From Nitrospira sp. (GTDB lineage Bacteria; Nitrospirota; Nitrospiria; Nitrospirales; Nitrospiraceae): a stretch of DNA of 64,000 bases. The stretch's first letter is position 1. Every line of letters begins with the position of its first letter. The notes under the pieces were generated by a model, which was not told the origin of the DNA, did not search any database, and was given only the letters and a program-made list of their open reading frames with translations. Both the position numbers and the translations under genes were made by a program. The stretch is taken from assembly GCA_016788885.1 (NCBI GenBank), contig JAEURX010000025.1:1-64000 (forward strand), written 5' to 3'. Positions 37,002-40,715 of the stretch are shown piece after piece.

Positions 37002-37874
37002 ATGAGCAGGCAGGTCGTCGTCAGTGTCACTGCAACGCTTCTTCTCCTGTGGACCGACCTGCTCTCCGCTCTGCCCCCGCTGCCCAAACCCGATCACATT
37101 GTACTCGTGATCGAGGAAAATCATGCCTTTTCCCAGATTGTTGACTCACCGGCCGCCCCCTATTTCAATGCATTGGCAGCGAAAGGGGCGCTGTTGACCA
37201 ACTCCTACGGCGTGACCCATCCCAGCCAACCGAACTATATCGCGCTCTTCGCGGGCACCATCGACGGGGTCAGCAAAAACACCTGTCCGACCTCGCTGAC
37301 GGTTCCCAATCTGTCCAGTACACTGACCCAAGCCGGACAGACGTTCATCGGCTATGCAGAAGACCTGCCCGCCGTCGGATCCATCGAGTGTGTCGCGGGC
37401 GCCTATGTGCGCAAGCATAATCCCTGGGTCAACTGGCAATCGTCTCCCATCAACACGGTCCCCGCCGCCAACAACCGTCCGCTGACCGATTTCCCGACAG
37501 ACTTCAGTACGCTACCGACCGTCAGCATCGTCGTCCCCAATCAACAGAACGATATGCACGACGGCAAAGACCCCGACCGCATTCAACGCGCAGACCAGTG
37601 GCTCCAGACTCATCTCGATCGGTACGTGGAATGGGCACAGACGCACAATAGTCTGTTGATCATCACCTGGGATGAGGATAACGGGAAATCAGACAACCAC
37701 ATTCCGACGATTCTGGTAGGACCGATGGTACGACCGGGCCGCTACGGAGAGCCCACGGACCATTACGGTGTGTTGAGAACCATCACGGAGATGTACGGAG
37801 CGAACCCGGTGGGATTGAGCCGCCAAGCGGCGCCCCTCACCACGATTTGGGCCACGCCGGAGTTCACACCTTAG
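37002..37874 (+). CDS. Secreted phosphoesterase family protein (acid phosphatase type)
   Basis: Exported enzyme (290 aa) of the phosphoesterase family that includes acid phosphatases and phospholipase C. A signal peptide (about residues 1-24) is followed by HIVLVIEENHAFSQI, HPSQPNYIALFAG, the IITWDEDNGKSDNHIPTILVG metal-binding segment and a final DHYGVLRTI motif. It would release phosphate from esters in the periplasm. It starts 18 bp after the exporter gene. Its stop codon lies within the first arm of a palindromic repeat. Confidence 0.88.
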   Translation: MSRQVVVSVTATLLLLWTDLLSALPPLPKPDHIVLVIEENHAFSQIVDSPAAPYFNALAAKGALLTNSYGVTHPSQPNYIALFAGTIDGVSKNTCPTSLTVPNLSSTLTQAGQTFIGYAEDLPAVGSIECVAGAYVRKHNPWVNWQSSPINTVPAANNRPLTDFPTDFSTLPTVSIVVPNQQNDMHDGKDPDRIQRADQWLQTHLDRYVEWAQTHNSLLIITWDEDNGKSDNHIPTILVGPMVRPGRYGEPTDHYGVLRTITEMYGANPVGLSRQAAPLTTIWATPEFTP

Positions 37875-38003
37875 CCCGCATTATTCATGAACGCTTCTGC
37901 TGCACTCGCCAATCCGCTGTCCCGGCAGACCGGCGGGCTCGCCCCTCGGTCTCACGACGCGGCGTGGTGATTTCGCGACGAACCGTCATGAATAGTGCGG
38001 GCT
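37873..38003. repeat. 131-bp symmetric palindromic element between convergent genes
   Basis: Outer arms 37873-37890 and 37986-38003 are inverted copies matching at 17 of 18 positions. A central hairpin joins 37927-37938 to 37941-37952 (10 of 12 paired, TC loop), with the same centre of symmetry near 37939, and weaker complementarity continues between. The element ends both flanking genes: the phosphoesterase TAG overlaps the left edge, and the last codons and TGA of the P-type ATPase lie in the right arm. It has the look of a MITE-like or REP-like interspersed repeat, and could act as a two-way terminator. Confidence 0.75.
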
Positions 38004-40715
38004 AGCCGTTTCCTGACACCCCCTTCGAGCGCGACTCCAGGCCTTCCACAACTCCATGATCAGGAACGGTAGCGTCCCCAACCCGGCGATCACTGCCCAT
38101 TCGTCGGCCCGCAGAGGCACGACTTTAAAAATCTCCTGCCCCCAGGGACTCACCAGAATGCCCGCCTGCAAGAGCGCCGAGACCAGCACGGCGCCCACCA
38201 GCATCGGATTGCTCGCCACCCCGATCTGAAACAGCGAGTACCGATCATGGCGGCAGGTAAAGGCGTGAAGAAATTGTACCCAGACCAGCGTGGTAAAGGT
38301 CATCGTTCGCGCGAATGGCACTTCATCTTTCACGATCGACAGCGCGATACCAAAGACCGCCAGAGTCGCCACGGCCATCACCAGGCCCTGCACGCAGACC
38401 GTGAGAAATCGGCGCCGGTCGAGCAACGGGGCCTGCGGGTCTCGAGGCGGCCGCTTCATCACATCGGGGGCTGCTGGATCGACGGCGAGGGCGAGGGCGG
38501 GAAACCCGTCTGTCACCAGATTGATCCAGAGAATGTGGATCGGAAGCAGCGGCAGCGGCCACCCCAGGACCGTGCTCCCCAGCATCACCAGGACCTCGCT
38601 CAAATTGCACGACAACAGATAGTGAACGGATTTGCGAATGTTGGCATAGATACTGCGCCCTTCTTCAACCGCGGCGGCGATGGAGGCGAAGTTGTCGTCG
38701 GTCACGACCATATCCGACGCATCCTTGGTCACATCCGTCCCGGTCACTCCCATGGCAATCCCGATGTCCGCCTCGCGCACCGCCGGCGCATCATTGACAC
38801 CGTCTCCGGTCATCGCCACCACCGCACCTTGTGCGCGCCAGGCCCTGACGATACGAAGTTTGTGTTCCGCCGACACTCTCGCGTACACAGACACGGTCCG
38901 CACCCGCGCGGCCAGCTCCGCATCGGTTAAGGCATTCAGTTCAAGGCCGGACAGAGCCTGCGTCGGGCCGCTCGCAAAGCCCGCCTCCCGTGCGATGGCC
39001 AACGCCGTGTCCTTATGATCGCCGGTGATCATGACCGTCGCGATCCCCGCGGACCGGCAGAGCTCGACCGCCGATTTCGCCTCAGGGCGCAAGGGGTCTT
39101 TCATGGCCGCCAACCCCAGAAAGCACAAGCGCTGTTCCAGCACCTCAGGCTCGAACGACGCCGGCTCCGGATCGAGGACCCGCTGTGCGAACGCCACCAC
39201 CCGTAGCGCCCGCTGCGCGAACTGCTGATTGCGTGAGAGGATCGCTTGGCGCAGGGGTTCCGTGAGCGGCCGCCGCTCCCCGGTTTCCGTCACATAGTCA
39301 TCACACCGGCCGAGCAACACATCCGGCGCACCCTTCACATACGCGACAGGTCGCCCCTGCGATCGCCGTACCACCGTCATCATCTTGCGATCAGAGTCGA
39401 ACGGGAGTTCTCCCAACAAGGGCTGTTCCCGCTCCAACTCCTCTTTCCACCACCCACCCTTTCCACCCGCAACGAGCAGAGCGCCCTCGGTGGGGTCGCC
39501 GACGACCGTCCACTTGCCGTCAGCCCGTTTCAATGACGCGCCGTTACACAAGAGCGCTGTCCAGAGCAGCTCACGCAGCGCGCCTTCACGAGGATCACCG
39601 CCGACGATCTCGCCCGCCGGCGCATACCCTTCCCCGGTCACCTCGATCACACGGTCATCGAGGGCCACTTGCGTGACCGTCATTTCGTTCTTGGTCAGAG
39701 TCCCGGTCTTGTCGGTGCAGATCACCGTCGCCGCACCCAACGTTTCCACCGCCGGCAAGCGACGAATGAGCGCGTGCCGCTTGACCATGCGCATCACCCC
39801 CAACGCGAGCGTCGTCGTCACGATCGCCGGCAGACCTTCAGGAATCGCCGCCACCGCCAGACTGACCGCCGTCAGAAACATGTCGAACAGCGGCTCACCT
39901 CGCCACACTCCCAGCCCGAACACCACCAGCACGATTCCCAGCGAGAGCGCCAACAGTACATGGCCGAACTGCTCCAGCCGACGTTGCAGCGGAGTGGGCT
40001 CGACCGGCACCGCAGTCATCAAGGTCGCAATGCGCCCCAACTCGGTGCCGCTGCCGATCGCCACGACAACCGCCCGCCCCTTTCCACCCGTGACGGTGGT
40101 CCCCATGAAGAGCAGATTTCGTTGGTCCGCAAGGGGAAGGTCGCTGTCGGGCAATGCCGCACTCAGCTTCTCAACCGGCGTGGATTCACCGGTCAGCGCG
40201 GCTTCTTGCGTGCGCAGGCTCGCAGCCTGGAGCAACCGGGCATCCGCTGGGACGTGGTCGCCCGCCTCCACATCGACGATGTCGCCCGGCACTAACTCCG
40301 TCGAAGACAGGTTGAGCCGCGTTCCACCGCGAACCACTCGCGCATAGGTCACGGCCAGGGTGCGCAACGCCGCCAGCGATTGTTCGGCTCGATACTCTTG
40401 AAGAAATCCCAACAGCCCATTCAACAACACGATGGCGAGAATGGCACCGGCATCGACCCACTCTCCCAAAAGGCCGGAGACCACCGCAGCCCCGACCAGC
40501 ACCCAAACGATGAGGCTCGTAAATTGTGCGGCCAACATCTGCCAGAGAGAAGGCGGCAGCGCTTCGGGCAATTCGTTGCGGCCGTTCGACGCACGACGGC
40601 GCGTGGCTTCTTCCTCGGTGAGCCCCACGGCCGGGTCGACACCGAACTCCCGGCCAATCTCGTCCTGCGACCGGGCATACCATCGGGGGCGATGGGGCTG
40701 TTGCTGGTCAGCCAT
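37986..40715 (-). CDS. P-type ATPase, calcium-transporting (P2A) type
   Basis: Inner-membrane cation pump (909 aa) of the P2 group. The order is an N-terminal cation-ATPase domain, about ten membrane helices, the phosphorylation motif DKTGTLTKNEM and the hinge TGDGVNDAPA. The membrane motif IPEGLPAIVTTTLALG matches SERCA/PMR1-type calcium pumps and the C-terminal helices are complete. Export of Ca2+ (perhaps Mn2+) is the likely role. The last residues (ASPHYS) are coded by the palindromic repeat arm. Confidence 0.9.
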   Translation of the reverse strand: MADQQQPHRPRWYARSQDEIGREFGVDPAVGLTEEEATRRRASNGRNELPEALPPSLWQMLAAQFTSLIVWVLVGAAVVSGLLGEWVDAGAILAIVLLNGLLGFLQEYRAEQSLAALRTLAVTYARVVRGGTRLNLSSTELVPGDIVDVEAGDHVPADARLLQAASLRTQEAALTGESTPVEKLSAALPDSDLPLADQRNLLFMGTTVTGGKGRAVVVAIGSGTELGRIATLMTAVPVEPTPLQRRLEQFGHVLLALSLGIVLVVFGLGVWRGEPLFDMFLTAVSLAVAAIPEGLPAIVTTTLALGVMRMVKRHALIRRLPAVETLGAATVICTDKTGTLTKNEMTVTQVALDDRVIEVTGEGYAPAGEIVGGDPREGALRELLWTALLCNGASLKRADGKWTVVGDPTEGALLVAGGKGGWWKEELEREQPLLGELPFDSDRKMMTVVRRSQGRPVAYVKGAPDVLLGRCDDYVTETGERRPLTEPLRQAILSRNQQFAQRALRVVAFAQRVLDPEPASFEPEVLEQRLCFLGLAAMKDPLRPEAKSAVELCRSAGIATVMITGDHKDTALAIAREAGFASGPTQALSGLELNALTDAELAARVRTVSVYARVSAEHKLRIVRAWRAQGAVVAMTGDGVNDAPAVREADIGIAMGVTGTDVTKDASDMVVTDDNFASIAAAVEEGRSIYANIRKSVHYLLSCNLSEVLVMLGSTVLGWPLPLLPIHILWINLVTDGFPALALAVDPAAPDVMKRPPRDPQAPLLDRRRFLTVCVQGLVMAVATLAVFGIALSIVKDEVPFARTMTFTTLVWVQFLHAFTCRHDRYSLFQIGVASNPMLVGAVLVSALLQAGILVSPWGQEIFKVVPLRADEWAVIAGLGTLPFLIMELWKAWSRARRGCQETASPHYS

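Follow-up and report, generated by a model that had tools for sequence, protein, structure and literature searches.

The 64,000-nucleotide stretch of Nitrospira sp. DNA analysed here (the window) carries a 131-bp palindrome between the ends of two convergent genes, which raises the question of whether this structure is a local feature of the gene pair or a copy of something mobile. From comparison with related genomes, we consider the palindrome to be a non-autonomous DNA transposon (MITE) of Nitrospira, moved in trans by an IS1380-family transposase, and assign this reading a probability of about 0.92.

The palindrome and its limits

The nested symmetry originally predicted for this locus is present. 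The outer arms pair at 17 of 18 positions (AGCCCGCATTATTCATGA at 37873-37890 with TCATGAATAGTGCGGGCT at 37986-38003), a central stem of the form AGACCG...CGGTCT lies between them, and the sequence in between is partially paired. Folding of positions 37860-38016 as RNA gave -73.2 kcal/mol (z = -5.5), and folding as DNA gave z = -3.7; in both cases none of 200 shuffles equalled the native sequence. The predicted edges, 37873-38003, describe the palindrome correctly, but the element itself begins and ends two bases further in on each side and is flanked by 4-bp target copies (Table 1). Both neighbouring genes, whose products are named from sequence as a phosphatase-like protein and a P-type (Ca2+-type) ATPase, had been described as ending at the edges of the palindrome. 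This is accurate for the phosphatase-like gene, whose TAG stop codon (37872-37874) falls within the left target copy; the ATPase frame, by contrast, crosses the right target copy and stops at a TGA within the right TIR. The TIRs are 16 bp long and match at 15 of 16 positions in the window copy and at 16 of 16 in many other copies. A comparison with Rfam matched no described RNA family and returned two sub-threshold matches at chance level.

Table 1. Features of the element and its neighbours in the window
Feature	Position	Strand	Remarks
Phosphatase-like gene, neighbour	37002..37874	+	End ...WATPEFTP* aligns with the end in relatives; named from sequence
Left target copy TTAG, 4 bp	37871..37874		Its TAG is the phosphatase stop codon
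Left TIR CCCGCATTATTCATGA, 16 bp	37875..37890	+	Same 16 bases end the Nitrospira IS1380 elements L223/L170 and L224
127-bp non-autonomous element (MITE)	37875..38001	+	Short form of the 188-bp class without the central hairpin region
Interior: subterminal complementary stretches and central stem	37891..37985	+	No transposase
Right TIR, 1 mismatch	37986..38001	-	Contains the ATPase stop codon TGA (37988-37986)
Right target copy CTAG, 4 bp	38002..38005		One base unlike the left copy
P-type (Ca2+-type) ATPase gene, neighbour	37986..40715	-	Element encodes the last residues SPHYS*; named from sequence

Copies and anatomy of the repeat family

The original prediction set a dispersed repeat against a single-copy local structure, and the element proved to have four whole copies in its own genome, and relatives carry many others. 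When this genome (3.92 Mb, 75 contigs) was searched with a BLASTN-type method, one unambiguous further copy (C49, 69%, E 5e-7) emerged along with weaker matches. The four whole copies (C25:37870, C25:69533, C27:59764 and C49:15562) came from a TIR pattern search together with a profile scan, two of whose matches belonged to the training set; the genome also contains fragments, as well as two copies (C38:146581, C61:8446) from a sister subfamily whose ends are of the CCCGG type. Most other sampled Nitrospira genomes match at E<=0.01, with a maximum of 43 matches in one, and the number of copies per genome ranges from none to dozens across the genus. When up to one mismatch was allowed, the TIR occurred as many as 98 times per genome, compared with 0-1 for the reversed control. 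In a phylum-wide sample it was abundant only in the family of Nitrospira, barring one genome (G156) from another family of the class. The 7 TIR matches of this genome, mostly with CCCGGATTATTCATGA ends, are isolated outside the Nitrospira family, and horizontal transfer is a possible source. An exact 24-mer search of GTDB contigs gave 62 matches, nearly all of them labelled Nitrospira or Nitrospirae.

Approximately 100 copies have the common 16-bp ends and fall, measured from TIR to TIR, into length classes near 121, 134, 173, 188, 209 and 235+ bp, the overall size range being about 120-330 bp. Conservation extends into the subterminal sequences (left GAACGCTTCTGCTGCAATCGC, right GCGATTTCGCGACGAACCGTC), and the middle varies, containing extra hairpins or entirely different interiors; the window copy is a 127-bp form from which the central part of the 188-bp class is missing. 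Among 36 copies of the 188-bp class, compensatory changes were detected in 22 of 54 consensus pairs, compared with 8.1 in shuffles and 4-9 in slid controls. Because the compensatory changes exceed both controls, the fold appears to be kept up, in the interior as well as at the ends, be it by selection acting on the RNA or on the DNA or by repair of imperfect palindromes through template switching. Of 117 copies, 107 fold better on the reverse strand; a composition-keeping shuffle mostly removes this difference between strands, which argues against a strand-specific RNA, and the better-folding strand shows no clear bias toward the orientation of neighbouring genes (28 vs 16). Many 188-bp copies (e.g. 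L061, L062 and L068) also contain a frame of ~60 codons that opens at an ATG within the left TIR and closes at the TAG in the right target copy. Since this frame is broken in the window copy and in other length classes, we rejected an encoded peptide and treated the frame as chance in a G+C-rich palindrome.

Several copies depart from the common plan. Eight (L117, L120, L131, L077, L132, L084, L115 and L116) have normal ends and subterminal sequences around unrelated interiors, which suggests interior replacement or cargo capture. A nested hairpin module of the CACCCGTTGC...GCAACGGGTCCCCGG type lies at differing positions inside L075, L078, L105, L107, L095 and L113 and may represent another small repeat that inserted into the element. 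At L067:116-484 (G023:C1:2148800-2149600), elements of the CCCGG and CCCGC subfamilies adjoin at a common CTAG junction, as if the later arrival had inserted into a target copy made by the earlier one.

Target sites, repeated insertion and the likely mobiliser

The phosphatase/ATPase gene pair is present in nearly all of the 29 Nitrospira genomes searched, so that filled and empty sites could be compared directly. Between fixed points in the two convergent genes, the gap in ~20 relatives with an empty site is 94-109 bp, mostly 107-109. The corresponding gap is 239 bp in the window (108+127+4, that is, 108+131), 233 in G042 and G015 (108+121+4) and 286 in G020 (109+173+4), which carries a sister-subfamily element with CTAG on both sides where the empty site of G023 has one CTAG. 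The filled sites thus exceed the empty ones by the element plus four, and therefore the duplicated unit is 4 bp. The window's own target copies, TTAG and CTAG, are one base apart; this counts against the transposon reading and needs one later substitution. Exact 4-bp duplications are found in several copies and in G020. Across copies, exact direct duplication was observed in 41 of 103 against 30.5 on shuffling, an excess that is modest because CTAG is its own reverse complement; non-palindromic four-base direct repeats (TTAG/TTAG, CTAA/CTAA, TGAA/TGAA and TGAG/TGAG) also occur.

The same site has been filled more than once. The closest copies of the window element are non-orthologous ones in G042, G015 and G005, and the same-site copies of G042 and G015 belong to a different branch, alongside copies in G023 and G009. 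A tree forced to join the window copy with those of G042/G015 was 29.7 log-likelihood units worse, and the AU test, based on few columns, rejected common descent of these insertions (p-AU 6e-6). These separate branches, together with the sister element of G020, mean that a single stop-codon tetranucleotide has received at least three insertions, independently in the window lineage, in G042/G015 and in G020. A truncated sister-subfamily remnant lies at the same stop codon in G007 (L194), where the ATPase frame enters it and ends ...SIHE*.

In related genomes, IS1380-family (PF13701) elements 1.69-1.71 kb long end in the TIR of the MITE; two of their ends are identical at 16/16 positions and the others differ by 1-4. 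One of these elements, L170, encodes an intact transposase of 457 aa. Their direct duplications are CTAG/CTAG, TTAG/TTAG and ATAG/ATAG, with unequal sides in a few copies. Beyond ~16-23 bases the ends of the MITE and of the IS1380 elements have nothing evident in common, and the MITE therefore does not correspond to any IS observed here with its middle simply deleted. The window's genome gave no PF13701 or L170-like match, so no autonomous partner was found there, and a relative of the transposase is detectable in only 19 of 147 genomes of the family, in several of them in pieces. Because the window's genome is without such a transposase, we infer the mobiliser from relatives, an IS1380 transposase being the likely one; for the same reason the window copy looks stranded, probably through loss of the transposase from this genome. 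Such a transposase would act in trans on the 16-bp ends and bring the element from elsewhere into a YTAR tetranucleotide, with CTAG preferred, duplicating its four bases. Here the target was the TAG stop of the phosphatase gene converging on the ATPase gene. Neither gene is destroyed, since the duplication keeps the phosphatase stop and the right TIR provides the ATPase with a new short end, SPHYS*. Dispersed copies, conserved TIRs, a 4-bp target duplication, orthologous empty sites and an autonomous IS with the same ends thus bear out the MITE-like character proposed at the outset.

Movement by a TA-duplicating transposase of the IS630/Tc1-mariner type, the kind suggested for RUP and Correia elements, agrees with the TA at both edges of most copies, but we regard it as very improbable. 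The non-palindromic four-base repeats and the insert lengths at orthologous sites, which fit the element plus four, led us to reject TA as the duplication, and the IS630 elements of the genus carry other ends, whereas those of IS1380 match. Slightly less credible still is a local bidirectional transcription terminator with no tie to transposition. The convergent genes and the strong stem would suit such a role; however, a terminator-like T-run pattern was not found in the element, ~20 relatives have the gene pair without it, homologous copies lie elsewhere in many genomes, and its limits are sharp, with 4-bp copies on both flanks. The terminator is thereby refuted as the origin of the palindrome, although the element may act as one. 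The REP-like alternative in the original prediction, a REP/RAYT-type palindrome, has next to no standing, for although the element is dispersed, palindromic and mostly outside genes, it is far longer than a REP hairpin and has length classes, conserved TIRs of IS1380 type and a 4-bp target duplication.

Stop codons and comparison with known systems

A TAG stop stands at the same place in most relatives with an empty site, and in relatives the ATPase ORF runs up to the phosphatase stop or overlaps it. With the element in place, the ATPase ends SPHYS* inside the right TIR in the window and, independently, in G042/G015. Among the 70 copies with enough flank, for which gene calls were crude, 21 lie on a stop codon when the site is closed up, compared with 28 of 553 control CTAG/TTAG/CTAA sites, and 13 lie inside ORFs, compared with 311 of the controls. 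Restricted to noncoding sites, the proportions on a stop codon are 21/57 and 28/242 (p 3e-5), and against noncoding CTAG alone (16/77) the excess is borderline (p 0.05). Much of this pattern is accounted for by the distribution of CTAG, which is scarce within genes and frequent at TAG stops, together with loss of in-gene insertions. An excess of convergent gene pairs around copies was not supported (17/54 vs 73/334, p 0.12). It is conceivable, though we are doubtful, that the family is adapted to stop codons: a CTAG-type target would land on TAG stops, the duplication would restore the stop, a further stop, in a second reading frame, would come from the TIR, and the genes on either side would share a 3' end formed by the conserved fold; copies would thus be tolerated or even selected.

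No description of this element family was found in the open-access literature on Nitrospira or on IS1380 with MITEs, and neither IS1380 nor Nitrospira is mentioned in a review of prokaryotic MITEs from 2024 (PMC10969869). The present analysis puts a name to a mobile repeat of high copy number in a lineage of nitrite-oxidising bacteria central to nitrification and ties it to IS1380, a family for which no MITE turned up in the literature searched. The locus also offers a clear natural example of a single stop codon hit by insertions repeatedly, and stop-codon targeting by CTAG-preferring transposases becomes testable with existing genomes.

The element is ordinary in kind (cf. RUP, Correia, BOX and ERIC), and it both works like and qualifies as a MITE. 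To our knowledge, ERIC and the Rickettsia palindromic elements have no IS1380 TIR. They are similar in size (127 bp for ERIC) and in their palindromic fold, but their ends and target differ, judged by the description in a review (PMC2229807). IS1380-family insertion sequences, which have served as an outgroup to piggyBac (PMC10813416), share with the Nitrospira element the TIR (16/16 at two ends) and the 4-bp YTAG/CTAG duplication; unlike them, the element lacks a transposase, and the two kinds of interior are unrelated. RUP of pneumococcus and Correia of Neisseria are MITEs of 100-200 bp with a strong fold, and the TIRs of RUP resemble those of a resident IS (PMC2229807). The Nitrospira element is likewise a short MITE with a strong fold, but it has a 4-bp target and IS1380-type TIRs and is G+C-rich, whereas RUP and Correia have TA-type ends and are A+T-rich. 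BOX elements of pneumococcus often give a stop codon at the 3' ends of genes (36/58 overlapped CDSs; PMC3049150), and the Nitrospira element resembles them in its modular, variable interior and in the stop codon supplied at gene 3' ends. It differs from BOX in sequence and ends, and in the Nitrospira case the target tetranucleotide itself holds the stop codon.
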